30,791 bases of DNA, from positions 1 through 30,791 of the IMG/VR virus record IMGVR_UViG_3300034082_000616; one strand, written 5' to 3'. Source of the DNA: a virus. Position 1 is the first letter of the stretch, and each line of letters begins with the position of its first letter. Under the pieces are notes generated by a model, which worked only from the letters and a program-made list of their open reading frames with translations, was not told the DNA's origin and made no database searches. The position numbers were made by a program, and so were the translations under genes. Positions 4,778-30,791 of this stretch are shown one piece after another.

Positions 4778-5296
4778 ATGGCTTGTGATATATTAAAAGG
4801 TCGGACTTTACCGTGTAAAGATTCGAGAACGGGAATTAGATTTGTAGATTTTGGACTTTATACAGGCGATACTTATACGGTATCGGCTCAGGAAATTGCT
4901 TCTTTACCTGCTGGATTAGCTGAAGTTTTTCGTTATGAGGTAAAAGGTGCGGGTAATTCATTAATTGAAACTGCAACTGTAAATAACGATAACAGAACTA
5001 TTGAAATCGTTCAAGCATTAGCTTTGACTTTGCCTAAATTGGGTAAAGAAACTGAAGTGGAATTGCAATCTTTACTTTATGGTAGAGTTGTAGCATTTAT
5101 CCACGATTATAACGGTAACGTTAAGGCTGTAGGTATTGATTCAGGACTTGAAGCTACTACAGGAGTTATGAGTACTGAAGCGAGTGGTTATACTTTGGCT
5201 TTAGAGGCGAGAGATAATAACTTTGCTCCATTCTTATCAGGTGCTGCTAAAACTGCTTTGTTGGCTTTAGTTTCAGCGCAAGTAGTTACTGCATAA
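4778..5296 (+). CDS. Probable major tail tube protein
   Basis: The 172-residue protein begins MACDILKGRTLPCKDS. It continues with beta-rich segments: a YEVKGAGNSL strand, LTLPKLGKETEVELQ, then AFIHDYNGNVKAVGIDSG, and a threonine/glycine turn before YTLALEARDNNFAPFL. This arrangement resembles a family next to capsid genes in Bacteroidetes phages and looks like a tail-tube-type beta barrel. Like the capsid gene it is followed at once by a strong terminator, which fits an abundant virion protein. The tail-tube role is an inference from fold-like pattern, size and position; a head decoration protein is the main alternative. Confidence 0.55.
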   Translation: MACDILKGRTLPCKDSRTGIRFVDFGLYTGDTYTVSAQEIASLPAGLAEVFRYEVKGAGNSLIETATVNNDNRTIEIVQALALTLPKLGKETEVELQSLLYGRVVAFIHDYNGNVKAVGIDSGLEATTGVMSTEASGYTLALEARDNNFAPFLSGAAKTALLALVSAQVVTA

Positions 5297-17665: not shown

Positions 17666-17697
17666 AAATCGGTTATTAATTTAACCGATTTTTTTTT
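17666..17697 (+). terminator. Rho-independent terminator
   Basis: A perfect 10-bp stem (17666-17675 with 17682-17691) closes a TTAATT loop and runs into nine T (17689-17697). It separates the phosphoesterase gene from the promoter at 17706. Confidence 0.9.
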
Positions 17698-17705
17698 GCT
17701 TTTTA

Positions 17706-17736
17706 TTTGCATAATAAAAAACTATTACTACATTTG
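17706..17736 (+). promoter_or_regulatory. Bacteroidetes-type promoter with degenerate palindrome
   Basis: TTTG at 17706-17709 and TACATTTG at 17729-17736 are 19 nt apart. The spacer is C plus ATAATAAAAAACTATTAC (17711-17728), a degenerate version of the palindrome in the promoters at 11742 and 13258. The predicted start near 17741 gives a 25-nt leader for the helicase gene. Confidence 0.82.
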
Positions 17737-17765
17737 CATATATAAATAATAAAACAAAACACAAA

Positions 17766-19133
17766 ATGACAAATTACAAAGAATTTTTAGAAACAAAAAG
17801 ACACTCAATAGGCAACTATGGGTTTAAAGCAAATTACATTCCTGATATTGCTTTTGACTTTCAAAGACACGTTATTGAAAAAGCTACTTTAAAAGGTCGT
17901 AGTGCTGTTTTTTTAGATACTGGATTGGGTAAGACTTTAGTACAATTATCTTTAGCTAAAAACATAGTAAACCATACAAATAAAAAAGTATTAATATTAA
18001 CTCCTTTAGCGGTTGCGTTTCAATTTATTTTAGAAGCTGAAAAGTTAGGTATTGATGATATTGAATATTCAAAAGATGGTAAGCATACTAAAAAAATAGT
18101 TGTTTGTAATTATGAAAGATTACACTATTTTAATGAGAATGATTTTGAAGGAGTTATTTTAGATGAGAGTAGTATTTTAAAAAACTTTGATGGTAAAATT
18201 AAACAAGAAGTAACAAGCTTTGTTAAGAAAATACCTTATAGATTTTTAAGTACTGCAACTCCATCACCTAACGACTTTATAGAATTAGGTACAAGTTCTG
18301 AGGCGTTGGGGTACATGGGGTATATGGATATGTTAGGTAAGTTTTTTAAACAAAATAATAATGCAATTGATTCAACTAATAGAAATATTGGAGAAAAGTT
18401 TTACTTAAAACCACACGCAGAAAAAGACTTTTTTGCTTGGGTTAATCAATGGTCAATTATGGCAAAAATGCCAAGTGATTTGGGTTTTTCAAATGATCGT
18501 TATAATTTACCTGAATTAATTGTAAATAAACATATAGTTACAAATGATAGCCAAATTTCTATAGATGGTCAATTACAAATGTTTAATATAGTAGCTAAAA
18601 ATTTTAATGAAATTCGTTATGAACAAAAGCAAACGGAAGAAAAAAGATGTGAAAAAGCTATTGAATTAGCAAAAAATAAAACTTCAGTATATTGGTGTAA
18701 TACTAATAACGAAAGTAGTATTTTAAAAAGTTCAGATAAAAATGCTATTGAAATTATAGGATCTCAAAGTATTGATAAAAAAGAAGAAATACTTTTAGCT
18801 TTTGCAAATGGAGAAATTGAAAGACTAATTACAAAGGCAAAAATGACTTCTATGGGTTTAAACTGGCAGCATTGCAATCATTCAGTATTTTTTCCAACGT
18901 GGAGTTATGAACAATATTACCAAGCTATAAGACGTTTTTGGAGGTTTGGACAAACAAAAAACGTTAGTATTGATATGGTTATTTCAGATGGTCAAACAAG
19001 GGTACTGGAAGCCTTAGAACAAAAAACACAAAAAGCAATACAATTACATAGAAATCTAACAGAAAACGTAAACCGTTCATTTGAACACAAAGTAAAAGAA
19101 TTTAACAAACAAATTATTAAACCTAAATTTTAA
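17766..19133 (+). CDS. SF2 / SNF2-type DNA helicase
   Basis: The 455-residue protein has helicase superfamily 2 motifs in order: a Q-like FDFQRHV (about 30-36), Walker A DTGLGKT (51-57), motif Ia LTPLAVAFQ, motif II DESS (133-136), and motif III STATPSP (162-168). A second RecA lobe carries TSMGLNWQHC and the motif VI segment QAIRRFWRFGQ. DESS and the RRFWRFGQ form are common in phage SNF2-like helicases. It probably remodels or unwinds DNA in replication or recombination. The methyltransferase gene begins 12 nt downstream, a pairing seen in other phages. Confidence 0.87.
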   Translation: MTNYKEFLETKRHSIGNYGFKANYIPDIAFDFQRHVIEKATLKGRSAVFLDTGLGKTLVQLSLAKNIVNHTNKKVLILTPLAVAFQFILEAEKLGIDDIEYSKDGKHTKKIVVCNYERLHYFNENDFEGVILDESSILKNFDGKIKQEVTSFVKKIPYRFLSTATPSPNDFIELGTSSEALGYMGYMDMLGKFFKQNNNAIDSTNRNIGEKFYLKPHAEKDFFAWVNQWSIMAKMPSDLGFSNDRYNLPELIVNKHIVTNDSQISIDGQLQMFNIVAKNFNEIRYEQKQTEEKRCEKAIELAKNKTSVYWCNTNNESSILKSSDKNAIEIIGSQSIDKKEEILLAFANGEIERLITKAKMTSMGLNWQHCNHSVFFPTWSYEQYYQAIRRFWRFGQTKNVSIDMVISDGQTRVLEALEQKTQKAIQLHRNLTENVNRSFEHKVKEFNKQIIKPKF

Positions 19134-20171: not shown

Positions 20172-20200
20172 AGCCGCTGAAGAAATTTAGCGGTTTTTTT
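20172..20200 (+). terminator. Rho-independent terminator with GAAA loop
   Basis: A 10-bp stem (20172-20181 with 20186-20195, two G-T wobbles) is capped by a GAAA tetraloop and followed by seven T. It ends the helicase-methyltransferase operon. Confidence 0.87.
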
Positions 20201-20207
20201 ATATCTT

Positions 20208-20240
20208 TTTGTTATTTATTCAAAAAAAGTATTATATTTG
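20208..20240 (+). promoter_or_regulatory. Promoter of the replication operon
   Basis: The -7 box TATATTTG (20233-20240) is a perfect match to TAnnTTTG. A TTTG at 20208-20211 lies 21 nt upstream, slightly longer than the usual 19. The spacer has no palindrome, unlike the other four promoters. The predicted start of transcription is near 20245, exactly where the first hairpin of the leader begins. Confidence 0.75.
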
Positions 20241-20244
20241 TAGC

Positions 20245-20345
20245 TGTAATGTAGTGAGACACGTTACAAAACCGAAAATATTATAAAAATCCTATCAGGA
20301 AGGCGAGTCTCACACCAGCCAACTTGATGGGATTTTACTTTTTAA
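20245..20345 (+). ncRNA. Structured leader or small RNA with predicted kissing hairpins
   Basis: Hairpin 1 pairs 20245-20252 with 20261-20268 (8 bp, one G-U) around the loop AGUGAGAC. Hairpin 2 pairs 20286-20297 with 20325-20336 (12 bp, one G-U), contains an inner GGC/GCC helix (20302-20304 with 20318-20320), and is capped by a loop with GUCUCAC (20307-20313). The loop sequence GUGAGAC of hairpin 1 (20254-20260) is perfectly complementary to that heptamer. The transcript should start at hairpin 1, and hairpin 2 is followed by a U-rich stretch, so it could be an attenuating leader for the replication genes or a ~100-nt small RNA. I do not recognise a named family. Confidence 0.65.
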
Positions 20346-20382
20346 CTAAATAGTTTATCGGTATCTTAAAACCGTTATTATT

Positions 20383-20616
20383 ATGGCAAATTTTGAATTA
20401 AAATTTTTAGACTCAAAAAACGAAATGTTTATTGAAGTAAAGAAAAAAACGGTTGAATTATATTCTTGTAATAAAGATTATATTCAAATTATTATTGGAG
20501 AATTTGATGGTAGAGATCAATACATTGAAATTGATAAAAGTACCGCTATTAAATTTGCCAAAACACTTCGCACAGAAATAAACAAAATTACAGAAAGCGA
20601 GGTTTCTAATGAATAG
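20383..20616 (+). CDS. Small protein, first gene of the replication operon
   Basis: The 77-residue protein has an N-terminal beta-rich half (FELKFLDSKNEMFIEVKKK, then DYIQIIIGEFDG) and a C-terminal helix ending acidic. Its compact beta pattern resembles small phage accessory proteins, but I do not recognise it. It overlaps the initiator gene by 8 nt and lies directly behind the structured leader. Confidence 0.65.
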   Translation: MANFELKFLDSKNEMFIEVKKKTVELYSCNKDYIQIIIGEFDGRDQYIEIDKSTAIKFAKTLRTEINKITESEVSNE

Positions 20617-21295
20617 CTATGAATTATCTCGAAAATGGTTTGATTGGAGTTTTGAAAATCCTGAAAAAATAAGTCCTAACCATTCCGCTTTATATTTTTT
20701 TGCAATTGAACATTGTAATAGATTAGGATGGAGAGAAAAATTTGGTTTTCCAACTGAAATGGCAAAAGATGCAATAGGTATAAAATCTTATAATACTTAT
20801 GTAAAAACTTTAAATGATTTAGTTGATTGGGGTTTTATAAAAATGATCCAAAGAAGTAAAAATCAATATTCAGCTAACATAATTGCACTATCAAATTTTA
20901 ATAAAGCACTTGATAAAGCACTTGATAAAGCAATAGTAAAGCACGTGACAAAGCAAGATGAAAGCATTGATAGTATAGATAAACCAATAACCAATAAACC
21001 AATAAACGATAATGACCGTTCGGTCAATTGGGATGCACTTCTTTTACAATTCAATTCTATAACAGGAAAAAAACTAAAAGTAGTTTGTGATAAATCTAAA
21101 AGGCAAATAAACGCAAGGTTAAAAGAAGGGTATTCTAAATTAGATATTCTTAACGCTATTACAAATTGTTTTAACGATGATTACCATAAAGAAAATCCTA
21201 AATATTTAACATTGGAATTTATAAGCCGACCTGATAAAATGCAAAAATACGCTCAAGAAATTAAAAAATCAAAACCTAAACAAGATAGACTATGA
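20609..21295 (+). CDS. Replication initiator with Phg_2220_C-like domain
   Basis: The 228-residue protein starts with a winged-helix-type region (about 15-85: SALYFFAIEHCNRLGW, MAKDAIGIKSYNTYVKTLND, LVDWGFIKMIQRSKNQYS). A low-complexity linker (about 95-140) follows, then a C-terminal domain resembling Phg_2220_C (ITGKKLKVV, INARLKEGYSKLDILNAI, YLTLEFISRPDKMQKYAQ). This is the layout of DnaD/O-type phage initiators, which bind the origin and load the helicase. The linker DNA carries phased repeats that could be that origin. It is coupled to the next gene by an ATGA overlap. Confidence 0.75.
   Translation: MNSYELSRKWFDWSFENPEKISPNHSALYFFAIEHCNRLGWREKFGFPTEMAKDAIGIKSYNTYVKTLNDLVDWGFIKMIQRSKNQYSANIIALSNFNKALDKALDKAIVKHVTKQDESIDSIDKPITNKPINDNDRSVNWDALLLQFNSITGKKLKVVCDKSKRQINARLKEGYSKLDILNAITNCFNDDYHKENPKYLTLEFISRPDKMQKYAQEIKKSKPKQDRL
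20901..21010 (+). other. Candidate replication origin: iterons plus AT-rich repeats
   Basis: Six copies of AAAGCA begin at 20903, 20915, 20927, 20938, 20950 and 20961, a spacing of 11-12 bp, inside ~12-bp repeats such as ATAAAGCACTTG. Behind them come four short AT-rich repeats of the AAACCAAT type (20981-21010). Iterons followed by an AT-rich stretch inside the initiator gene is the layout of the lambda origin in gene O. The origin role is inferred. Confidence 0.55.
21013..21026 (+). promoter_or_regulatory. 14-bp inverted repeat next to the origin-like repeats
   Basis: TGACCG (21013-21018) and CGGTCA (21021-21026) form a perfect inverted repeat around TT, 3 nt downstream of the AT-rich repeats and inside the initiator gene. 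It is GC-rich compared with its surroundings. It could be a protein-binding site of the origin; it may also be chance. Confidence 0.4.
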
Positions 21296-21804
21296 GTAAA
21301 CCAAATTTAAAAAAGTCTTTTGAATGGTTGTTTGATAGATTTACAAAGGAAAATATTAAGCCGTGCCAATTTGATTTAGACTGCTTGGTAAGCATTGCAG
21401 AAAAAACAAATGAAATAAATAAAGAAGCGTTTCAGGAAAATACTATTTTTGCCAAGATGTATGTTTATTGTCTTATGCACGAATTGGAATATTACAAGGA
21501 TATTGAGTTTGCCACTAAAAAACTAAATGAGGTTTTAGATGCACCATTAGAAAAAACGTGTGATGATTTCTTAAATAGATTAAATCACTTGGAATTAAAT
21601 AAGTATTTAAAATCAATCGGAATTAATACGGATCATTTAAAACAATTGACAAAAGAAGAAGAAGCAAAACAGGTCGTTTTAATAGAAGAAAATAAAAAAA
21701 GTATACAAATATATGTTTTAGGTAAATTCACAAAGGAAAACGTATTCAAATCGATTAATAACGCAATTACAAACTGTATTATTAATTTCAAAAACAAAAA
21801 TTAG
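21292..21804 (+). CDS. Hypothetical protein between initiator and ATPase
   Basis: The 170-residue protein is predicted to be helical, with CQFDLDCLVSIAEKTNE, FAKMYVYCLMHELEYYKD and a final ENVFKSINNAITNCI segment. I see no Walker or zinc motif. Located between an initiator and a RecA-fold ATPase, it may take part in helicase loading or primosome assembly. That is an argument from position only. Confidence 0.65.
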   Translation: MSKPNLKKSFEWLFDRFTKENIKPCQFDLDCLVSIAEKTNEINKEAFQENTIFAKMYVYCLMHELEYYKDIEFATKKLNEVLDAPLEKTCDDFLNRLNHLELNKYLKSIGINTDHLKQLTKEEEAKQVVLIEENKKSIQIYVLGKFTKENVFKSINNAITNCIINFKNKN

Positions 21805-21811
21805 TAAAAAT

Positions 21812-22693
21812 ATGGAAATTAATATACCAAAAATAGAAATTGGAAAACAAAACGAAATAGTAAAAGGCACAAACTTTTTAGATATTTTTAAAAATAGTTA
21901 TGTTGATCCTTCGGAAGAAATAAAACCTCAACCAGTTGCAATAAGTATAGGCAGTTCGGAATATAAAGGCACAAATTACCCGATTCCGTTTGGCTCTTAT
22001 GGTGATTTTTCTTGTATTGTTGGAGCTTCTAAAAGTAGAAAAACTTTTTTTAAATCTATGATTGAAGCTGCTTATATTGGAGGTTATTCTAATATCTATA
22101 ATCCATCTATAAAAGGTCATAATACTAACGATAAATTAATAATATCAATTGACACCGAACAATCAAAGCACCATACTCAAAGAGTAGTTAGAAGGGTTTT
22201 AGATTTGGTTGGTTCTAACTATGATTTATACAAAACATTTTCTTTAAGAACGTATTCGCCCAAAGAGCGTTTTGAGTTTATCAATTGGTTAGTTTATGAA
22301 AGCGAATTTAAAAAAGACATTGGATTGATGTCTATAGATGGATATGTAGACTTGGTAACCGATTTTAATAGTTTAGAACAAGCTACAGGACTAACCGAGA
22401 AGCTACTCGAATGGACTGCACGTAAAGAAGTAAAAGAACAAATGCATATAACAGGAATTTTGCACAAGAATTTTGGAACTGCTAAACCTGTAGGTCACGT
22501 TGGATCAAGTGTTTTAAAGAAAGCTGAAACAGTTGTTTTTATAGATAAAGAAGAAGAAATTTCAAGCGCAAAATGCGAGTATTCTCGTAATATGGAATTT
22601 AAGACCTTAATGTTTGGAATTAATAAAGATTGGTTGCCGTACGAAATTGAAGAAGGAATAGTAGTTAATAATAAAAAAGAAGTATCATTCTAA
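21812..22693 (+). CDS. RepA/DnaB-type RecA-fold ATPase
   Basis: The 293-residue protein has the AAA_25/RepA-type core. A variant Walker A GASKSRKTF lies at residues 71-79 (Lys77, Thr78), a strand IISIDTEQSKHHTQRVVRRV carries the Glu that usually follows, and a Walker B-like GLMSIDGYVDL follows. A downstream HITGILHKNFGTAKPVGHVG segment provides the His/Gly sensor region. SKSRKT in place of GxGKT is common in this family in Bacteroidetes phages. It probably acts as the replicative helicase or its loader. It shares one base with the RusA gene. Confidence 0.78.
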   Translation: MEINIPKIEIGKQNEIVKGTNFLDIFKNSYVDPSEEIKPQPVAISIGSSEYKGTNYPIPFGSYGDFSCIVGASKSRKTFFKSMIEAAYIGGYSNIYNPSIKGHNTNDKLIISIDTEQSKHHTQRVVRRVLDLVGSNYDLYKTFSLRTYSPKERFEFINWLVYESEFKKDIGLMSIDGYVDLVTDFNSLEQATGLTEKLLEWTARKEVKEQMHITGILHKNFGTAKPVGHVGSSVLKKAETVVFIDKEEEISSAKCEYSRNMEFKTLMFGINKDWLPYEIEEGIVVNNKKEVSF

Positions 22694-23019
22694 TGGAGAT
22701 AAAACTACACATAAAACCGATGTCTATTAATAACGCTTTTAAAGGGCGTAAATTTAGGACAAAAGAATATGATATCTTTATAGTTCAGTGTTTAAGATTG
22801 CTGCCGAATAAAATCGAGATACCTGATGAAACAAATATAAAACTTGCTTTGGAATTTGGTTTTAGTTCCAGGGCGAGTGATATTGATAATTGTGTTAAAA
22901 CTTTTATAGATTGTTTGGTAAAAAAGTATAAAGTAGATGATCGTTTTATATACGAATTGCATACTTTTAAAACTATAGTTAAAAAAGGAGAGGAGTTTAT
23001 ACGTTTTAAAATATACTAA
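22693..23019 (+). CDS. rusA: RusA-like Holliday junction resolvase
   Basis: The 108-residue protein matches RusA, a dimeric Mg-dependent enzyme that cuts four-way junctions. The N-terminal strand IKPMSINNAFKGRKFRTKEY is typical. The catalytic segment SRASDIDNCVKTFIDCL supplies Asp63, Asp65 and Lys69, with Asp82/Asp83 in KVDDRFIYEL as the third acidic position. In phages it resolves recombination intermediates before packaging. Its place directly after the ATPase fits a replication-recombination operon. Confidence 0.85.
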   Translation: MEIKLHIKPMSINNAFKGRKFRTKEYDIFIVQCLRLLPNKIEIPDETNIKLALEFGFSSRASDIDNCVKTFIDCLVKKYKVDDRFIYELHTFKTIVKKGEEFIRFKIY

Positions 23020-23226
23020 ATGAAATTAGCCGACAAGATTGAAGCTTTTAAAATTAAAACACCAAATCGCCTTGAGCATACCTTTAAAAATGGGTTAATA
23101 TTTAAAGGAAGCGGAACTTATAAGTTACATTGGTGGATTGATAGCCTTTATAAAGATGCTGTAAATGAGTGGATTGAAAAAAAATGTACCGATACATCAA
23201 AATTTCTTGAAAAAATACTTGCGTAA
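23020..23226 (+). CDS. Small protein closing the replication operon
   Basis: The 68-residue protein begins directly after the RusA stop codon and is basic, with aromatic residues in TYKLHWWIDSLYKDAVNEWI. Its end overlaps the -33 region of the next promoter (23218-23221). I do not recognise it. Confidence 0.6.
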   Translation: MKLADKIEAFKIKTPNRLEHTFKNGLIFKGSGTYKLHWWIDSLYKDAVNEWIEKKCTDTSKFLEKILA

Positions 23227-23248
23227 TTAAAATTTATTACGATATTTG
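23218..23248 (+). promoter_or_regulatory. Bacteroidetes-type promoter with near-palindromic spacer
   Basis: CTTG at 23218-23221 and GATATTTG at 23241-23248 are 19 nt apart; the -7 box has G in place of the first T. The spacer is C plus GTAATTAAAATTTATTAC (23223-23240), a near-copy of the palindrome in the promoters at 11742 and 13258. The predicted start near 23253 fixes the first usable ATG of the next gene at 23282. Confidence 0.78.
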
Positions 23249-23281
23249 CTAAAGAAAACAACAACTACTAAAAGAAATATT

Positions 23282-23554
23282 ATGAAAGCAATCATCAACA
23301 ACGGAACAACTTACAAAGTAACAGGAGAAAAAGGAGCGTTCACAATTACAGAAGATGTGAAAGGTAAAGTGAAAATGTTTCAAACTTCTACAATCGAAAT
23401 TATAGATGCTGAATTTGGAAAAGTTAAAGTTTACGCAAAAGCAAAACAGCCAGTTTCTGCCGCTGCTAAAAGAAACGCTACGGCTTATATAGCTGAAATG
23501 AAAAAAGATTTAAACGATGCTAAATACAGTACAGGAAGATACACTAACCAATAA
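23282..23554 (+). CDS. Small basic protein of unknown function
   Basis: The 90-residue product starts at the first ATG behind the promoter at 23218; the earlier ATG at 23246 lies inside the -7 box and cannot be used. It has a beta-rich N-terminal half (YKVTGEKGAFTITEDVKGK, STIEIIDAEFGKVKVYAK) and a Lys/Ala-rich helical C-terminus. As first gene of its operon it may be an abundant early protein. I do not recognise the family. Confidence 0.7.
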   Translation: MKAIINNGTTYKVTGEKGAFTITEDVKGKVKMFQTSTIEIIDAEFGKVKVYAKAKQPVSAAAKRNATAYIAEMKKDLNDAKYSTGRYTNQ

Positions 23555-23565
23555 TTAAAATAAAG

Positions 23566-23781
23566 ATGGAAATTTCAATTTACGAAGACAGAGTATCAAT
23601 TTCAGTAAATGAAAACGTTAAAATTCAATTAGTAGTATGGGATTTAGAAAAATCTCAACACGAATTTTTAGAAAAACAAATTAATTTAATTATGGCTATT
23701 TCTGAAAAATTAGATGATTTAGTAAAGCATTTAAAAATTAATGGATTTGATGCTGAACTTGAAGATATACACGAAGACTAA
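23566..23781 (+). CDS. Small acidic protein
   Basis: The 71-residue protein starts with two strands (EISIYEDRVSISVNENVKI) followed by an amphipathic helix (LEKQINLIMAISEKLDDL) and an acidic end. It lies 11 nt behind the preceding gene. Function unknown. Confidence 0.6.
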   Translation: MEISIYEDRVSISVNENVKIQLVVWDLEKSQHEFLEKQINLIMAISEKLDDLVKHLKINGFDAELEDIHED

Positions 23782-23869
23782 TACCATTTATCATTTCAGC
23801 AGAAAAAATACAAATTGAATCATTTTAAAAACACAAACAGAACTTTTAAACGCAATAAAATAAAACAAA

Positions 23870-24019
23870 ATGAAAAGAATAATAAAATACATTTATTACA
23901 GAGAGATTCAGGGATCTTCTGATAGGTCATTTAAAACAATTCAAGAAGTACACAAGTACGCTAAAATGATGAATATTGAAAACTATGAAGTAAAAGAAGT
24001 AATCGAAATAACAAGATAA
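23870..24019 (+). CDS. 49-residue small protein
   Basis: A frame with a good A-rich leader encodes a basic protein (RIIKYIYYREIQGSSDRS and SFKTIQEVHKYAKMM). It ends 5 nt before the next gene. Its size is below usual cut-offs, but spacing and codon use agree with the neighbours. Confidence 0.55.
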   Translation: MKRIIKYIYYREIQGSSDRSFKTIQEVHKYAKMMNIENYEVKEVIEITR

Positions 24020-24024
24020 AAATT

Positions 24025-24225
24025 ATGTTAACAGTAAAAAACAAAGCCGAAAAATTAGTGCTATCAATGCACGGAATAGAAAATGATCCTAATCATTACA
24101 TGTCAATTGATAATGCTAAAAAATGCGCATTAATTGCAATTGATGAAATACTTGGAATGGTAGACGAAGAAAGCCTATATTTTGATTATTGGTCGGAAGT
24201 GAAAGAAGAAATAGAAAAAATGTAA
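24025..24225 (+). CDS. Small conserved phage protein, paralogue of 25380-25574
   Basis: The 66-residue helical protein has the pattern AKKCALIAIDEIL then YWSEVKEEIEKM. The protein at 25380-25574 repeats the same pattern (AKQSALIAVDEVL, YWQKVKQEIENL). This type recurs in flavophages and other phages of Bacteroidetes, with unknown function. Confidence 0.65.
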   Translation: MLTVKNKAEKLVLSMHGIENDPNHYMSIDNAKKCALIAIDEILGMVDEESLYFDYWSEVKEEIEKM

Positions 24226-24227
24226 TT

Positions 24228-24716
24228 ATGACACTAACAGAAATCAAAGACTTATTTAAAGTAGATTTAACAATTAAGAATAGAAAACCGCATTTTGTTT
24301 ATTTACGAGGAATTTATATGGATCAGGAGATTGCAAATGGCAGAAATAATTTAAACATTTGCAAAGAATTAAAATGCAATCACGCAACAGGGTTTCACTA
24401 TTTTCAAAGAAAAGATTTTTATAAAAATATTAAAGAATATAATGAGGTTAAAATAGCATTTGATAATAAAAATGCTGATTTATTTAAAGATATTGATTTT
24501 AGACTTAATAATGTTAAGTACATTCACTATCGAGAAATGGAACGTAAAAAGCCTAAAAAAATAAAGTTAGAAGAAATGCCAGAGGTAAGATGGCATTATT
24601 TAAAGATTATTGAGGCACTACGCAAAGATAACAGGCACAGTTTGTGGGAAAAAGAGATGAAATTGTTCACAATTAATGATTATAAAGTTTTAGAAGAATT
24701 GGAAAATGGCAAATAA
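24228..24716 (+). CDS. DnaA domain IV-like helix-turn-helix protein
   Basis: From the ATG at 24228 the product has 162 residues. An earlier in-frame ATG at 24189 would overlap the preceding gene by 37 nt. Residues 19-60 resemble the DNA-binding domain IV of DnaA: RKPHFVYLRGIYMDQEIANG, NLNICKELKCNHATGFHYF, where NHAT takes the place of the DHST signature. The rest is a charged helical region without ATPase motifs. It may bind DnaA boxes and compete with or recruit host DnaA; this is an inference from the motif. It overlaps the next gene by 11 nt. Confidence 0.6.
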   Translation: MTLTEIKDLFKVDLTIKNRKPHFVYLRGIYMDQEIANGRNNLNICKELKCNHATGFHYFQRKDFYKNIKEYNEVKIAFDNKNADLFKDIDFRLNNVKYIHYREMERKKPKKIKLEEMPEVRWHYLKIIEALRKDNRHSLWEKEMKLFTINDYKVLEELENGK

Positions 24717-24846
24717 AAGAATTAAAAAACCGTTAACGCAAAGATTATCGATTTATGAGCAAGAATATAAATTGAAAGAACAAGCAAAAGAAGTACTTAA
24801 AAAAATAAAAGAAGATGCCAGATATATCACTTTGCAAAGGGATTAA
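24706..24846 (+). CDS. 46-residue basic helical protein
   Basis: The frame starts in an 11-nt overlap with the preceding gene (ATGGCAAATAA) and overlaps the next one by 32 nt. It encodes a Lys/Arg/Gln-rich helix (SIYEQEYKLKEQAKEVLKKI). Coupling supports it; function unknown. Confidence 0.5.
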   Translation: MANKRIKKPLTQRLSIYEQEYKLKEQAKEVLKKIKEDARYITLQRD

Positions 24847-25093
24847 TTGCAATATAAAAGATAATTGCTATAGATTTAAAGCCGAACCGAGTAAATTTAG
24901 ACAATCGTGGTTTTGTAAAAGTCCTAATGTAGATCCTTTAAATTGTGATTATTATTGGGAATTAATTAAACCTATACATAAGTTCAATTCAGGAATTGGA
25001 GGAACACTATGCCACAAATGCAGTAAAATTATAAGCACAGGATTTACAAAAGATTTATATTGTTCAATTAAATGCAAAGAAAAATGCGAGTAG
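24815..25093 (+). CDS. Cys-rich zinc-binding small protein
   Basis: The 92-residue protein has ten Cys. An N-terminal cluster, LCKGINCNIKDNCYRF, is followed by FCKSPN and NCDYYW; a C-terminal cluster reads LCHKCSK and YCSIKCKEKCE, the last resembling a treble-clef or zinc ribbon. It probably binds two zinc ions. Similar Cys-rich proteins are scattered in phages of Bacteroidetes. Function unknown. Confidence 0.62.
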   Translation: MPDISLCKGINCNIKDNCYRFKAEPSKFRQSWFCKSPNVDPLNCDYYWELIKPIHKFNSGIGGTLCHKCSKIISTGFTKDLYCSIKCKEKCE

Positions 25094-25281
25094 TATTTAT
25101 AGCTATTTTGATAGCAGCGGTAGGGGTTATAATGTTTCATTTAGGTATGAAAAGTAAAAAATTTTTAGATAAAACTATTGTACTAACTTTGCCGAACAAC
25201 GAATTACCGCCTAATGAGGGTGATTTGTTTAGGGTTCAATATGTGAGTGGGGAAAAAGTTTATTTATGTATAATTGATTAA
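25084..25281 (+). CDS. Single-pass membrane protein
   Basis: From the ATG at 25084 (10-nt overlap with the preceding gene; an ATG at 25072 is possible) the product has 65 residues. It has one N-terminal membrane helix (VVFIAILIAAVGVIMFHLG) followed by a basic stretch and a small beta domain. A membrane-anchored accessory protein is likely. Function unknown. Confidence 0.58.
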   Translation: MRVVFIAILIAAVGVIMFHLGMKSKKFLDKTIVLTLPNNELPPNEGDLFRVQYVSGEKVYLCIID

Positions 25282-25289
25282 ATTTTTTA

Positions 25290-25358
25290 GTCCCAAATTT
25301 AAACAATATTAGGGACAGAATTAATAACTATAATACGGCACTAAATTAAAAAAGTGCC
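25290..25358 (+). other. Two short hairpins in an intergenic gap
   Basis: Two 5-bp inverted repeats lie in a row: GTCCC/GGGAC (25290-25294 with 25312-25316) and GGCAC/GTGCC (25337-25341 with 25354-25358). Neither has a T tract, and no promoter is recognised in the 98-nt gap 25282-25379. They may be weak mRNA structures; chance is possible. Confidence 0.35.
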
Positions 25359-25379
25359 AATAATTAAAAATAAAAAAAT

Positions 25380-25574
25380 ATGACACCTAAACAAAAAGCA
25401 TTTGAATTATATTTTAAATTTTATAGAGATATAATTGCAGACAATGATAAAGCTAAACAATCTGCATTAATAGCAGTAGATGAGGTTTTAGATGCGAGTT
25501 TATATTCTTATGACGCAATGAGTATTTACGTTATTTATTGGCAAAAAGTTAAACAAGAAATAGAAAATCTATGA
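25380..25574 (+). CDS. Small conserved phage protein, paralogue of 24025-24225
   Basis: The 64-residue helical protein shares the pattern AKQSALIAVDEVL...YW..VKQEIENL with the gene at 24025, so the two probably arose by duplication or separate acquisition of the same family. It is coupled to the next frame by an ATGA overlap. Confidence 0.65.
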   Translation: MTPKQKAFELYFKFYRDIIADNDKAKQSALIAVDEVLDASLYSYDAMSIYVIYWQKVKQEIENL

Positions 25575-25657
25575 AATATATTTTAGTTTGGATAGCATAC
25601 GAGTTTATAAGACCAAAAGCGATTTGGTTATGGAATTTTTTAATAAGTAAAGCATAA
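25571..25657 (+). CDS. 28-residue hydrophobic peptide
   Basis: An ATGA-coupled frame encodes a Trp-rich hydrophobic peptide (YILVWIAYEFIRPKAIWLWN). The coupling is the support; the length is at the limit of what can be believed. Confidence 0.4.
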   Translation: MKYILVWIAYEFIRPKAIWLWNFLISKA

Positions 25658-25661
25658 AATT

Positions 25662-25760
25662 ATGATAGAAGATTTTGCACAAGGAATAGTTATAGGGTTT
25701 ATGATGGGAATATGTTTTTCGTTAGTAGCTTATATTTTAAAAAATAATAAGTATATTTGA
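25662..25760 (+). CDS. 32-residue single-pass membrane peptide
   Basis: A short frame 4 nt behind the previous one encodes one membrane helix (GIVIGFMMGICFSLVAYIL) with a basic end. It precedes the sigma-like gene by 4 nt. Function unknown. Confidence 0.45.
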   Translation: MIEDFAQGIVIGFMMGICFSLVAYILKNNKYI

Positions 25761-25764
25761 CATT

Positions 25765-26220
25765 ATGATTGAGAAGTTAGCACAACATCACGAGGACTGG
25801 ATAAAGTTTGCATTAAAGATTTGCGGAAACCGTGATGATGCTAACGACTTGGTACAAGAAATGTATTTAAAAATGCATACGTTAGATAAAGAAGTAAACC
25901 ATTCTTATATCTATTGCGTTATAAAGAATATATTCTTGGATCAATATAGAAAAAATAAAGTAAAAGAAAAAACGGTTTACTACCAGGAGGAATACACAGA
26001 ACAAAATGAAGAAATTGATTTTACAGCAGCTTATGAAGAATCGCTAAAAGAACTTAAAAGCTATAAACAATTGATTGTTAATTTTTCAACTAAAGATGGA
26101 GTTAATAATTTCGCAAGGCAAAGCGGAATTTCACGAGCCACAATAATCAGGATAAGAAACGAATTTAAAACAATACTATGTCAAAAGGTAAAGGACTGGG
26201 AGATTCAATCGCAAAACTAA
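25765..26220 (+). CDS. Sigma-70-like (ECF-type) factor
   Basis: The 151-residue protein has a region 2-like part: HHEDWIKFALKICGNRDDAN, DLVQEMYLKMH, then YIYCVIKNIFLDQYRKNK, the usual DA.DLVQE...I..N...D..RK.K order. An acidic linker is followed by a C-terminal helix-turn-helix (NNFARQSGISRATIIRIRNE) in the place of region 4. It is located 290 nt before the terminase genes, so it may direct host RNA polymerase to late genes, or it may bind DNA only. No separate late-promoter motif is evident to test this. The next gene overlaps it by 43 nt. Confidence 0.72.
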   Translation: MIEKLAQHHEDWIKFALKICGNRDDANDLVQEMYLKMHTLDKEVNHSYIYCVIKNIFLDQYRKNKVKEKTVYYQEEYTEQNEEIDFTAAYEESLKELKSYKQLIVNFSTKDGVNNFARQSGISRATIIRIRNEFKTILCQKVKDWEIQSQN

Positions 26221-26483
26221 CTGAAGCAGTTGGAATAAAGCCGTGCGTTGGTTGTGAGAAAAGAAAAAACATTTTGAATAAACTATTCCCATTTAAACAA
26301 GTTAATGCTTTAAATCGTGCGCAAATTAAGTTAATTGCAAAGTTAGATAGTTTGTCAGATATGGAATTGATAAAAATTTATAACGATGTTTTTAATACCA
26401 ATTTAGATATTTCTACGTTTAATGAGAATATACGCAAAGCAGTTATAAATGATTTAAAAGTACTTTGCGATAATTCAAAATAA
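26178..26483 (+). CDS. Conserved GLGD/CxGC phage protein of unknown function
   Basis: The 101-residue protein starts KGLGDSIAKLTEAVGIKPCV and continues GCEKRKNILNKLFPF. This N-terminal signature, with two Cys and the RK..LN.LFPF motif, is widespread in phages, often near packaging genes, without known function. The start overlaps the sigma-like gene by 43 nt, and the signature requires that start. The C-terminal half is helical. Confidence 0.68.
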   Translation: MSKGKGLGDSIAKLTEAVGIKPCVGCEKRKNILNKLFPFKQVNALNRAQIKLIAKLDSLSDMELIKIYNDVFNTNLDISTFNENIRKAVINDLKVLCDNSK

Positions 26484-26509
26484 ATTTAACTAATTAATTT
26501 ATATTAATT

Positions 26510-26794
26510 ATGGATAATAGAAAGAATAACGGAGGACATTCGACTGCGGGTAAAGCTGGTAGACCTTCCGTAAAAGATGAACTTAAGGGAGTTAATTTAG
26601 CAAGTCCACACGTTAAAGATTCATTTGAAACTATTGCAGCTATAATGAGAAATGAAAATGAAAATTCACGAGATAGAATTGCAGCAGCTAAATTGCTAAT
26701 TGAGTATGGATGTGGCAAACCTAAAGAAACAGTAGAAACTACTCATAATATAAACGACTTTAATATTAAGGATGTGTTTAATATCAATAGGTAA
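26510..26794 (+). CDS. Terminase small subunit-like protein
   Basis: The 94-residue protein opens with a basic AGKAGRPSVKDEL segment. The helical segment FETIAAIMRNENENSRDRIA, AAKLLIEYGCGKPKETVE is typical of small DNA-binding proteins that precede the large terminase in phages of Bacteroidetes. It overlaps the large subunit gene by 23 nt. The role, recognising the packaging site, rests on position and this motif. Confidence 0.65.
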   Translation: MDNRKNNGGHSTAGKAGRPSVKDELKGVNLASPHVKDSFETIAAIMRNENENSRDRIAAAKLLIEYGCGKPKETVETTHNINDFNIKDVFNINR

Positions 26795-27983
26795 AAAATA
26801 TAATATATTAGGTTCGGATAGTAGGTACTTTGTAGTTACAGGAGGCAGGGGTTCAGGGAAGTCGTATTCTGTGAACTCCTTTCTACTTTTGTTAACATAC
26901 GAGGTCGGACACGTTATTTTATTTACTCGATATACTTTAACTTCAGCGCACATTTCTATTATTCCTGAATTTATAGACAAGATTGAAACAGCTGATTTAA
27001 GCCAAGATTTTTATATTACTAAAGACGAAATAGTAAATTTAAAGACAGGTTCTAAAATACTATTTAAAGGTATTAAAACAAGCAGCGGAACTCAAACGGC
27101 TAACTTAAAATCGTTAGCAGGAATAACAACTTGGGTTTTAGATGAAGCTGAAGAACTTGTAGACGAAGATGTATTCGATAAGATTGATTTTTCGATTAGG
27201 GATAAGTCAAAACAAAATAGAGTTATTTTAGTTTTAAATCCAACGACTAAAACACACTTTATTTATAAGAAGTTTTTCGAGAGCAAAGGAGTAGAACCAG
27301 CTTCCAATTTGATAAACGGAAATACTACTTACATACATACGGACTATAAAGATAACATCGAATACCTTTCAGAATCTTTTATCGCTCAAATTGAAAACAT
27401 AAGAGAAAATAATAAAGAAAAATATAGACACGTTATTCTTGGCGGTTGGTTAGATAAAGCCGAAGGAGTAGTCTTTACAAATTGGAAGCTTGGAAAGTTT
27501 GAGGAGGTTGCGCCATCTATTTACGGACAGGATTTTGGTTTTTCAATTGACCCGACTACATTAATACAAACATCAATAGACAAGTCAAATAAACGAATTT
27601 ATGTAAAGGAATTAGTTTATAAATCTAAACTTACAACCTCCGAAATATTTGAATTAAATCAAAGGTATTGCGATAATCAATTGATTATTGCTGATAGTGC
27701 AGAACCAAGATTGATACACGAATTAAGAATACGAGGTAACAATATAAAAGAAACTATTAAAGGACCAGGAAGCGTTACAGCAGGTTTGAGTTTAATGCAG
27801 GATTATGAATTGATTATTGATCCTGATAGCACAAACGTAGTAAAGGAATTAAATAATTATACCTGGAGCGATAAAAAAAGCGATACTCCTGTAGATGCAT
27901 TTAACCACGCTATCGATGCTTTAAGATACGCTGTATATTTTCAGCTGCATAAATTATCAAAAGGACAAACCATTTTAGGTTAA
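26772..27983 (+). CDS. terL: Terminase large subunit (Terminase_3 type)
   Basis: The 403-residue packaging motor has the ATPase motifs Walker A GGRGSGKS (24-31), an adenine/coupling region, and Walker B TTWVLDEAEEL near residue 120, with NPTTKTHFIYKKFF as the coupling motif. The C-terminal nuclease domain shows acidic metal ligands in YGQDFGFSIDPTTLI, LIIADSAEPRLIHELR, and DAFNHAIDALRYAVYF. The enzyme cuts concatemeric DNA and pumps it into the prohead. The length is normal for the PBSX-like family. The portal gene does not follow, which is unusual. Confidence 0.92.
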   Translation: MCLISIGKKYNILGSDSRYFVVTGGRGSGKSYSVNSFLLLLTYEVGHVILFTRYTLTSAHISIIPEFIDKIETADLSQDFYITKDEIVNLKTGSKILFKGIKTSSGTQTANLKSLAGITTWVLDEAEELVDEDVFDKIDFSIRDKSKQNRVILVLNPTTKTHFIYKKFFESKGVEPASNLINGNTTYIHTDYKDNIEYLSESFIAQIENIRENNKEKYRHVILGGWLDKAEGVVFTNWKLGKFEEVAPSIYGQDFGFSIDPTTLIQTSIDKSNKRIYVKELVYKSKLTTSEIFELNQRYCDNQLIIADSAEPRLIHELRIRGNNIKETIKGPGSVTAGLSLMQDYELIIDPDSTNVVKELNNYTWSDKKSDTPVDAFNHAIDALRYAVYFQLHKLSKGQTILG

Positions 27984-27998
27984 ATACGTTATATTAAT

Positions 27999-28655
27999 AT
28001 GAAGATTAAAATACCAACATCATTAAGCGATATAAGATTAGAACAATTTTTATTGTTTCAAAAAGTTATTAAGGAAAATCAAAGTGATTCTTTTGTTTCT
28101 TTAGCAATGGTTAGCATCTTTTGCGATATATCCGTACATGATGCACAAAATATAGAATTGAAAGATTTTAATGATATTGTTTTGCAAATTAGCGAAGTAT
28201 TAAAACAACAACCGAGATTCATACAACGTTTTATTTATAATGGAAAAGAATACGGTTTTATTCCTAATTTAGATGACATTACAGCAGAGGAGTACATTAA
28301 CTTGGAATCTTTTTTAAAGACTGAAGATACCTATCCAAAAGCTATGACAGTACTTTATAGACCTATTGCCAATAAAATGAAAAACCTTTATAACATTGAA
28401 GATTATAAAGAAAACCACACCGACTTTAATAAACTAAATTTAGAGATTGTTTTAGGTTCTATGCTTTTTTTTTGGAATTTAAGCAACGAATTGTTGATAT
28501 CTATGAAGGATTATTTAGCACAACCGAAAAACAGGACACTTTTGGAAACAGCTTTGGCAGCAAATGGGGTTGGTATCAATCAATTTTTACAGTCGCTAAC
28601 GGAAATATCTTCGATTTTGAAAGAGCGACTAAATTACGACTACACGAGTTCCTAA
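27999..28655 (+). CDS. Tail assembly chaperone, G-type product
   Basis: The 218-residue protein is mostly helical, with KIKIPTSLSDIRLEQFLLFQ at the start, LDDITAEEYINLESFL near residue 95, and a C-terminal GSMLFFWNLSNELLISMKDY and NGVGINQFLQSLTE. This pattern is recognisable from tail proteins located before the tape measure gene in phages of Bacteroidetes. The slippery run at 28465-28473 and an overlapping -1 frame indicate that it is the unshifted member of a G/GT pair, which chaperones tape measure protein and tail tube during assembly. The first in-frame ATG is used. Confidence 0.68.
   Translation: MKIKIPTSLSDIRLEQFLLFQKVIKENQSDSFVSLAMVSIFCDISVHDAQNIELKDFNDIVLQISEVLKQQPRFIQRFIYNGKEYGFIPNLDDITAEEYINLESFLKTEDTYPKAMTVLYRPIANKMKNLYNIEDYKENHTDFNKLNLEIVLGSMLFFWNLSNELLISMKDYLAQPKNRTLLETALAANGVGINQFLQSLTEISSILKERLNYDYTSS
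28466..28472 (+). promoter_or_regulatory. Slippery heptamer for -1 ribosomal frameshift
   Basis: The mRNA heptamer U UUU UUU is in the correct register: zero-frame codons are UUU at 28467-28469 and 28470-28472, preceded by U28466. It belongs to a run of nine T (28465-28473). A one-base backward slip makes the next codon TTG at 28472 and enters the downstream frame. Confidence 0.68.
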
Positions 28656-28720
28656 TGTTTTTAGAGTTTAAAGTCGATTTGGCTAACGAAAGTAACAAAC
28701 AAATTAAAAAGTATGAATAG
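28472..28720 (+). CDS. T-extension of the tail assembly chaperone (frameshift product)
   Basis: This -1 frame encodes 82 residues and is open only from 28433, after a stop at 28430-28432. It has no ATG before the conserved part, so expression needs frameshifting at 28466-28472 (or a TTG start at 28472). It contains FGSKWGWYQSIFTVANG and FDFERATKLRLHEFLMFLEF, which resemble a conserved segment of tail assembly proteins of Bacteroidetes phages. A shifted protein would have about 240 residues: 158 shared with the G product plus these 82. Residues coded at 28472-28655 overlap the G frame, so this stretch is read in two frames. Confidence 0.65.
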   Translation: MEFKQRIVDIYEGLFSTTEKQDTFGNSFGSKWGWYQSIFTVANGNIFDFERATKLRLHEFLMFLEFKVDLANESNKQIKKYE

Positions 28721-29156
28721 TTTTTATAAAGTTATCAATTATTTAAAAACACAACTCGAAAACGATATTGATGTTAATACCATAGTACACGGAGAAGCAC
28801 CTGAAAATAAAAAAGACTTGTTTCCGATGGCGCATTTGATGGTAACGAATGGAAGTTTCGGTCAAGGTACTTCAATCTTTAATTTTACAGTTCAGGTTTT
28901 AGATATTCGTAACGTTTCAAAGAAAATGAGTACCGATAAATTCCTAAAGAACGATAACGAATTAGATAATTTAAATACCTGCTTTGCTGTTTTGAATAGA
29001 TTAATAATGGATTTGAAACTACAAAGAAATAATTTAGATATTGAACTTTTAAACGAGCCAAGTTTATTGCCAGTGATTTATGAGTTCAAAGATACTTTAG
29101 ACGGTTGGACTGTAGATTTACAATTGTCAATAACAAATGAAGTTACGGTATGTTAA
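28713..29156 (+). CDS. Tail terminator / completion-type protein
   Basis: The 147-residue protein has an N-terminal helix (SFYKVINYLKTQLENDI), then VNTIVHGEAPENKKDLFPMA, a beta-rich core (FNFTVQVLDIRNV), a helix with NDNELDNLNTCFAVLNRL, and a final DTLDGWTVDLQLSI. This order resembles tail terminator proteins of Bacteroidetes phages, which cap the tail tube at the head-proximal end. It lies between the chaperone and a gp10-like gene, as in siphoviruses. Confidence 0.62.
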   Translation: MNSFYKVINYLKTQLENDIDVNTIVHGEAPENKKDLFPMAHLMVTNGSFGQGTSIFNFTVQVLDIRNVSKKMSTDKFLKNDNELDNLNTCFAVLNRLIMDLKLQRNNLDIELLNEPSLLPVIYEFKDTLDGWTVDLQLSITNEVTVC

Positions 29157-29680
29157 ATAAAGAAGAAACATTATCTACACTTCAGGCGTTTAATAAATAT
29201 GTTATTAAGCAGTCACGAACGAACCTTACTAAAGGCAAAAAAAATGTTTCTAAAAGTCTTTATAACTCTCTTAAATCGACTGAAAAAGTAAACCCGAACT
29301 CTATTGAATCGTATATTGAAATGGAGCAATACGGTCAATTTTTAGACAAAGGGGTTAAAGGTAAATTTAGCAGTCAAAGAGCGCCAGATAGTCCTTTTAA
29401 GTTTGGTAGCGGCACAGGTAAAAAAGGCGGGTTAACTGAAGGGATTAGAGGTTGGGTTAAGGCTCGAAGGTTTCAGTTTAAAAATAGAGAAACAGGTAGA
29501 TTTATGAGTTATGAACAAACAGCGCAATTAATTACACGCTCAATTTATTTAAAAGGAACAAAGCCGACAAGGTTTTTCAGCAAACCTTTTGAAGATGGAT
29601 TTAAAAAGTTACCTGAAGAATTAGTAAAAGCATACGGCTTAGACGTAGAATCATTTTTAAAATTTACATTAAAAGAATAA
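29150..29680 (+). CDS. HK97 gp10-like head-tail joining protein
   Basis: The 176-residue protein has EQYGQFLDKGVKGKFSSQ and FKFGSGTGKKGGLTEGI around residues 60-100. RGWVKARRFQF and YEQTAQLITRSIYLKGTKPT then RFFSKPF follow. The Gly-rich basic loop and R.I...G..PT.FF..PF ending are seen in HK97 gp10-like neck proteins. It probably connects the tail tube with the connector. It overlaps the preceding gene by 7 nt and shares one base with the next. Confidence 0.65.
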   Translation: MLNKEETLSTLQAFNKYVIKQSRTNLTKGKKNVSKSLYNSLKSTEKVNPNSIESYIEMEQYGQFLDKGVKGKFSSQRAPDSPFKFGSGTGKKGGLTEGIRGWVKARRFQFKNRETGRFMSYEQTAQLITRSIYLKGTKPTRFFSKPFEDGFKKLPEELVKAYGLDVESFLKFTLKE

Positions 29681-30791
29681 TGGGACAAAAAATAACATTT
29701 ACTTTTCCGACAAGTACAATTACAGGGTACAACCAAAGAAACTTTAGACTTAAAAAAGACGGTGTAACATTATTTGAAAAGATAGTAATTTTTACTCCTA
29801 CTGTTGAATATGGAACAGACCCTTATTTATTAACATTACCAAACCAAGACGCACCATATAACAACGAAATTGTAAAGGGCGCAAATATTAACAACTTTGC
29901 GAATAATTTTAAATTGTGGCTAACATATCAGCTCGCAGTTGAAACATATTTTTTCAATAACTTTTATTATGAGGTTTCAATAGTTGGAAATGTAGTAGAG
30001 TTAATTTGGGGTTCTAATAGTAGTACAGATACTTTTGAATTTGTTAATTTTCCCGACCAAACAGCGCATACTTCAGCTTGGTTAACTTATACAATTGAAG
30101 CTTATACAATACCTGCTTTAATAGTTCCCGAAGTTTTAGACGAACAAATAATACTTTCAAGAAGTCCGTATCATTTCAAACTAACGCCAGGTATTACATT
30201 TGACGAAATTACTGCTGAAGTATTTATATATCGAGGTCATAAAGTTGATGACAAACCAGCGACTTCTACTTATAATTTAAGTAAATCAGTAGTGCAAGTA
30301 GGTCAAGGTGCTATTAATTTTGATATTCATAAATTGGTTAATGATTATGTTAAAAGTAATTACAACGGAATAGGAGTAGATGGAGCGTTCACTACTTCAT
30401 TATTAGATAGCGTTTGGGTTTATATCGATGCAAAGATTTATTTATCAGGTGCGGAACAATACCAAGCAAATCAAACAGTATTGGCAGTAGATGGTTTTAA
30501 ATACCATACCGAAGTAGATAGTTTATGGACTATAGAATTTCAGCAAAATATATTAAGTAGTATTACAAATCATATTATTTATAATGATAGCGATTATCCT
30601 TTATATTTTATTACGGAAGGTTTAACGACTATTACTGCAAATGGTATTAATGTACCTTTTACATTTAGCCAAGACTACTCTAACCAAAAGATTGGTTATA
30701 TTAATGTAGCTAATTATATTGATGGTTCAACTTCTTTTGACGTAGTTTTTGCTTATGGTTTTGGGGATATTACTTACACGCATAGCTTTAC
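29680..30791 (+). CDS. Large tail protein, N-terminal fragment
   Basis: The frame starts on the last base of the preceding stop codon and is still open at the right edge after 370 codons. It is beta-rich, with many Thr, Asn and aromatic residues, no membrane segment and no catalytic motif. Recognisable stretches include KITFTFPTSTITGYNQRNF, SPYHFKLTPGITFDEITAEV and DIHKLVNDYVKSNY. Long beta-structured proteins at this place, between gp10-like genes and the tape measure gene, are usually minor tail or tail-tip proteins. It may be the start of the protein whose BACON-domain end lies at 3-254. Confidence 0.6.
   Translation, partial: MGQKITFTFPTSTITGYNQRNFRLKKDGVTLFEKIVIFTPTVEYGTDPYLLTLPNQDAPYNNEIVKGANINNFANNFKLWLTYQLAVETYFFNNFYYEVSIVGNVVELIWGSNSSTDTFEFVNFPDQTAHTSAWLTYTIEAYTIPALIVPEVLDEQIILSRSPYHFKLTPGITFDEITAEVFIYRGHKVDDKPATSTYNLSKSVVQVGQGAINFDIHKLVNDYVKSNYNGIGVDGAFTTSLLDSVWVYIDAKIYLSGAEQYQANQTVLAVDGFKYHTEVDSLWTIEFQQNILSSITNHIIYNDSDYPLYFITEGLTTITANGINVPFTFSQDYSNQKIGYINVANYIDGSTSFDVVFAYGFGDITYTHSF

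Follow-up and report, generated by a model that had tools for sequence, protein, structure and literature searches.

RNA loops that kiss are familiar from ColE1, where RNA I and RNA II are joined by a loop-loop helix of about 7 bp that tolerates changed letters as long as both sides change. Structured leaders are likewise familiar in phages: the free-standing homing endonuclease genes of T4 have a leader hairpin directly upstream, which hides the ribosome site within a single hairpin. To our knowledge, no described RNA family has the two-hairpin kissing leader plan that we report here. The closest riboswitch is guanidine-IV (mepA motif), in which two hairpins are joined by a loop-loop pseudoknot and the 3′ hairpin is a terminator near the start codon. 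Its linker length couples P2 closure to kissing, because a longer P2 leaves a shorter linker and thereby hinders the contact (PMC9788692, PMC11611296). In phage HK022, put RNA is a pair of stem-loops of about 70 nt carried by an early transcript, and putL lies just downstream of its promoter (PMC9378689).

The leaders described here have two kissing hairpins in common with guanidine-IV and its Gd4v variant. Their 3′ hairpin may be a terminator too: P2 has a GC-rich base and a U-tract, with the start codon a median of 20 nt further on. They differ in having no Rfam match and in that the kissing helix, whose own letters drift freely, is not flanked by conserved ligand-binding letters. The genes behind them are phage DNA-metabolism (replication) and endonuclease genes rather than guanidine exporters, and in our searches they are restricted to phages. 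By analogy, HK022 put is the nearest phage precedent: here, too, two stem-loops spanning about 70 to 100 nt stand near the 5′ end, in our case the predicted start, of a phage transcript, and they may likewise act on RNA polymerase (PMC9378689). In contrast to put, these leaders have a different structure, in which the hairpins kiss within one molecule and the second resembles a terminator, their host belongs to the Bacteroidota, and there is one leader per gene or operon instead of two per phage. ColE1 kissing joins two molecules, whereas here both loops lie in one leader. Like the T4 leaders, ours can stand directly before phage homing endonuclease genes, but as two kissing hairpins upstream of the ribosome site.

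The window, meaning the whole stretch of DNA that we analysed, comprises the 30,791 nucleotides of IMG/VR virus record IMGVR_UViG_3300034082_000616. The leader and its surroundings contain the following features:

20172–20202, + strand: intrinsic terminator of the upstream operon (AGCCGCTGAAGAAATTTAGCGGTTTTTTT), from a terminator scan
20209–20240, + strand: predicted Bacteroidota-type promoter, TTG (20209) ... TATATTTG (20233–20240), from sequence
20245–20268, + strand: hairpin P1, from the fold; P1 columns 100% paired in 38 homologues
20254–20260, + strand: kissing strand K1, GUGAGAC, from sequence and homologues
20269–20285, + strand: linker CGAAAAUAUUAUA with a conserved A-rich core, from the homologue alignment
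20286–20336, + strand: hairpin P2, from fold and covariation
20307–20313, + strand: kissing strand K2, GUCUCAC, from sequence and homologues
20333–20344, + strand: two-part U-tract UUUU-AC-UUUUU-A directly 3′ of P2, from the position profile of 63 elements
20347–20385, + strand: small conserved hairpin (UAGUUUAUCGGUAUCUUAAAACCGUUAUUAUUAUG) before the start codon, from 14 homologues
20383–20616, + strand: first gene of the operon, encoding a 77-aa protein with a C-terminal DKSTAIKFAKTLRTEIN conserved in homologues
20609–21295, + strand: second gene, phage replication-type protein (weak Phg_2220_C match, below the Pfam cut-off)

By sequence and fold, P1 is an 8-bp stem with an 8-nt loop, AGUGAGAC, in which K1 is complementary to K2, located 46 nt downstream in the apical loop of P2. 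The two hairpins, their loop sequences, coordinates and spacing, as given in a first-pass annotation of this DNA, all agree with the window sequence. The same annotation gave the second hairpin a 12-bp outer stem. A long stem is indeed present, but its length is 12 to 14 bp, depending on how the A-U base is counted; in the RNAfold model, 20286–20299 pairs with 20323–20336 over 14 bp, the last bases being A-U and followed by UUUUACUUUUU. Inside the outer stem lies a purine internal loop, followed by an inner stem (GGC, 20302–20304, with GCC, 20318–20320) and the apical loop with K2. By eye, the internal loop (20300–20301/20321–20322 in the window) is often GGA opposite GAA in the main family, possibly forming consecutive sheared G-A pairs. 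At L004, L120 and L136 it is GAGUA opposite GAAA, which resembles a bulged-G/loop E motif. We considered a strict coupling of P2 height to linker length and dropped it, because linker length varies by several nucleotides within the main family.

A TAnnTTTG (−7 box), TATATTTG, lies at 20233–20240, and a transcription start at about 20245 is therefore plausible. The place of the segment between this promoter motif and a start codon supports a leader role well. Between the leader and the start of the 77-aa gene, the small hairpin at 20347–20385 reads UAGUUUAU-CGG-UAUCUUAAAA-CCG-UUAUUAUUAUG. Its 3-bp stem CGG/CCG varies to CCG/CGG, AGG/CCU and CGA/UCG among 14 homologues, and the hairpin is also found in phages phi19:1 and Harreka_1; it is perhaps a translational operator.

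The segment folds far better than expected from its composition. RNAfold gave −36 kcal/mol for 20240–20385, compared with −22.1 ± 3.4 kcal/mol for shuffled sequences (z = −4.13), and none of 200 shuffles was as good. For the loop-loop duplex, a free energy of about −11 kcal/mol was predicted. Pairing between the loops of two independent stems had been called very unlikely by chance, and a stem of at least 5 bp, a kissing match of at least 7 bp and a second stem did occur jointly in only 10 of 20,000 dinucleotide shuffles of the window segment. Stronger proof than these shuffle statistics comes from the homologous sequences, in which both stems and the kissing helix show compensatory changes.

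BLAST detected the element in Flavobacterium phages morran9-1 and mumin6-1. Further IMG/VR contigs were found by patterns drawn from the linker and P2 only, with the loops left aside, and still more homologues came from a pattern for P1 and from a kissing descriptor, giving an alignment of 38 distinct sequences. Because the descriptor-added sequences had been selected for a perfect seven-base match, the kissing claim rests on the 26 distinct homologues found by patterns or BLAST without reference to loops. Every one of these 26 retains an intact kissing helix. Standard pairs fill 98.9% of the cells in the 30 pairs of the full alignment, and both sides change in 18 of these pairs; when the partner is slid by one to three columns, pairing falls to 36 to 44%. 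Both-sided changes affect four of the six P1 pairs. Within the kissing helix, four pairs change on both sides, one of them (columns 21/75) through all four Watson-Crick pairs (C-G 22, A-U 13, U-A 2 and G-C 1), and columns 18/78 and 19/77 switch jointly, AG with CU or GA with UC. These changes recurred, because A21 and C21 each occur on both GUGAGA and GUGGAA backgrounds. The first-pass annotation had named such compensatory changes as what to look for and a loss of the stems or of the GUGAGAC/GUCUCAC pairing as what would count against it. Changes of this kind are found in P1, P2 and the kissing helix, and pairing is kept while its letters change. On this comparative evidence, the segment is a real structured RNA with a loop-loop tertiary contact that is conserved while the letters drift.

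The suggestion that no named RNA family fits has also held. At the Rfam gathering score, there was no family in the window and only a tRNA in 12 related loci; at E ≤ 10, the best matches in the segment were chance ones, none of them credible. A covariance model (R1, without the pseudoknot) yielded one weak match in 395 Bacteroidia genomes, a plain terminator without kissing. The main-family pattern gave five matches in the genomes of 84,980 species, all without the promoter motif and P1 and judged to be chance. We found no kissing leader behind a promoter motif in 400 kb of Bacteroidota host DNA (twenty 20-kb pieces, 17 from one Pedobacter genome and 3 from another genome). A search of the literature available to us returned no paper on kissing loops in phages of Flavobacterium. 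Within the searches made, we therefore regard the sequence as a phage element. It is new as an RNA family; in kind, it is a phage 5′ leader with a kissing contact.

The main family belongs to a wider class. A model and structure descriptor found further leaders, with several on a contig, in these and in other flavobacterial phages. Their sequences are unrelated, but they are laid out alike: a TAnnTTTG promoter, hairpin 1, an A-rich linker, hairpin 2 with a GC-rich base, a two-part U-tract and a start codon. Several of the sequence-unrelated subfamilies also have an AAAA-N-AUUA-like linker core. Each copy carries its own kissing code, and codes differ between copies in one phage. An anchor-free descriptor scan gave 35 real matches at a score of at least 32, compared with none in shuffled sequence; in 30 of these 35 elements TAnnTTTG ends 2 to 12 nt before hairpin 1, against a background rate of 2%. 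Note that most scanned loci were fetched for carrying the main family, so the counts show that the structure is real, not how frequent it is.

Subfamily B, whose search pattern did not touch the loops, has a kissing helix of at least 7 bp in 10 of 10 distinct members (with codes GTCGTCG, GTGGACG, GTCTCAG and GTCGCAG) and precedes HNH and GIY-YIG homing endonuclease genes. The 9-bp kissing helix of subfamily C is intact in all promoter-bearing members. Sequence-unrelated versions occupy the orthologous place before the replication genes of Cellulophaga phage phi19:1 (GTACGAC/GTCGTAC) and Olleya phage Harreka_1 (GTGGTGG/CCACCAC). For phi19:1, orthology rests on a DNA match, the small hairpin and position, because nothing aligned when the 77-aa protein was compared with residues 1–60 of the phi19:1 protein by local BLASTP. 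One 9.5-kb fragment, L246, has about five kissing leaders. On L024, near-identical leaders at 2009–2100 and 4780–4870, about 2.8 kb apart, have a 10-bp kissing match, AAGTAGTGAG/CTCACTACTT. At L054 2025–2165 (− strand), L066 4370–4470 (− strand) and L075 10150–10256 (+ strand), P1 carries the loop type otherwise found in P2, and vice versa; a pattern for the loop-swapped type returned only the two contigs already known. By eye, the A-rich linker and the second U-run can be paired into an outer helix in some subfamilies, though not consistently. Several long inverted repeats of another kind, with GTTATAA/GTTATGT-like cores at their ends and without promoter motifs, lie at about 6964–8440 of L008/L254 (IMGVR 3300009678_000106), a contig classed as viral; they may be integron attC-like sites.

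The first start codon lies 5 to 54 nt behind the P2 base (median 20; 65 elements). The first gene behind a homologous element differs between phages, and these genes encode the 77-aa protein, DEAD and SNF2 helicases, primase-polymerase/DUF3987, DNA methylases, an AAA ATPase and homing endonucleases. The earlier proposal that the element controls the replication genes thus stands in part: it does head the replication operon here, but it also heads many other first genes, homing endonucleases included. Kissing leaders stand directly before free-standing HNH/GIY-YIG genes at L288, L289, L292, L293, L294, L002, L020 +5446, L022 and L037, and the leader may travel with such genes. In the window, the SNF2 helicase gene at 17766 has a plain short promoter-ATG leader (17691–17766), and an SNF2 helicase with 88% protein identity follows a subfamily C kissing leader at about 2620–2740 (− strand) of L328. 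From this pair, with and without the leader, we take the leader to be a plug-in module.

The U-rich run said to end the second hairpin is confirmed at 20333–20344 and has a conserved form. After the last G/C of P2, U fills 83 to 100% of positions 2–5 and 71 to 92% of positions 9–11 (63 elements). Part of this conservation follows from pairing, because the first U's of the tract pair with A's of P2. The U-tract score after P2 is 4.16, compared with 2.43 at matched upstream positions; this mean is modest, and 44% of elements reach 4. As in intrinsic terminators, a GC-rich stem is followed immediately by the tract, although here an internal loop divides the stem. Canonical terminators of the same phages have no second U peak at positions 9–11, and this run may signify something other than termination.

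We tentatively favour the reading that the segment is a cis-acting 5′ leader RNA working as a kissing-coupled attenuator. Two points speak for it: in every subfamily, P2 resembles a terminator and borders on the start codon, and guanidine-IV offers a precedent. RNA polymerase would start just before P1, which would fold first. As the head of P2 emerges, its loop would pair with the P1 loop in a helix of 7 to 10 bp, whose letters are arbitrary but matching. P2 itself, with its GC-rich base and U-tract directly before the start codon, is built like an intrinsic terminator; full closure of its base would give the terminator form, with the gene off, whereas a compact P1–P2 kissing form held by the A-rich linker would allow read-through, with the gene on. 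The balance between the two forms might be set by folding speed, polymerase state or a shape-recognising factor. Competition is assumed from geometry and the guanidine-IV precedent, because a static model lets P1, P2 and the kissing helix coexist. Termination at P2 and its prevention by kissing are both proposals. An attenuator had been suggested from the outset, as a ligand or protein sensor. The anatomy fits an attenuator best, but no conserved ligand pocket is evident, and the freely varying kissing letters speak against a pocket made of them.

Less likely, the leader could be a folded 5′-end cap that shields the mRNA against degradation, holds the start region open to ribosomes, or both, with kissing giving compactness. 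Its position a few nucleotides from the predicted 5′ end, loop letters that are arbitrary provided they pair, the start codon directly behind and the SNF2 gene at 17766, which manages with a plain leader, all suit a cap, which would, however, leave unexplained the conserved linker, the GC-rich P2 base with its two-part U-tract and the strict retention of loop-loop pairing. Nearly as probable as a cap, though still unlikely, is an antiterminator or anti-pausing RNA like put, whose kissed hairpins would bind the elongating RNA polymerase, stay with it and make it resist later stops; put action of this kind goes through the β′ zinc-binding domain of the enzyme. The extreme 5′ position in phage operons with many different downstream genes is what such an RNA would lead one to expect. 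There would be little to read through, however: on the + strand from 20383 to 30791, a scan for intrinsic terminators gave no clear site and a single weak, 5-bp candidate at 25208. Moreover, many leaders head single homing endonuclease genes, hairpin 2 itself resembles a terminator, and the word 'kissing' does not occur in the put paper (PMC9378689).

Pairing that is strictly kept while its letters are free, the different codes within one phage and the swapped loops would all fit a phage or host protein that reads the shape of the kissing complex rather than its sequence and thereby regulates how the next gene is terminated or translated. ColE1 Rop binds kissing RNA in this way, largely independently of sequence. 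We consider this improbable as the main explanation, and the analysis turned up no candidate protein. A free-standing small RNA of about 100 nt acting in trans, the other option in the first-pass annotation, has lost most of its appeal and is now very doubtful. Its own promoter motif, terminator-like 3′ end and length are in its favour, but the loops are consumed by intramolecular pairing, codes differ between copies, and the gap between P2 and the start codon is so short in most cases that a second promoter would hardly fit, if at all, which argues for a leader. A short terminated RNA could still arise as a by-product of that leader. Inverted repeats beside promoters are usually operators, but a DNA operator for a repressor, with no RNA structure, is scarcely credible here and strongly disfavoured by covariation, as both 7-mers always lie in loops of co-varying stems and their letters differ between copies in the same phage.

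For the leader as a class, we put forward, a shade more cautiously than attenuation itself, that self-kissing leaders could be a widespread regulatory module of Bacteroidota phages, with a pairing code that changes freely and is specific to each copy, and acting through shape alone as a plug-in switch between promoter and start codon, before replication and homing endonuclease genes and in several orthogonal copies per phage. The finding adds an RNA tertiary contact, proven by comparison and missing from Rfam, for phages whose transcription control is little studied. Because the kissing code need only match, varies per copy and sits in swappable loops, these leaders form a natural set of orthogonal kissing pairs. 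Their presence or absence before near-identical genes amounts to a natural experiment on leader function.
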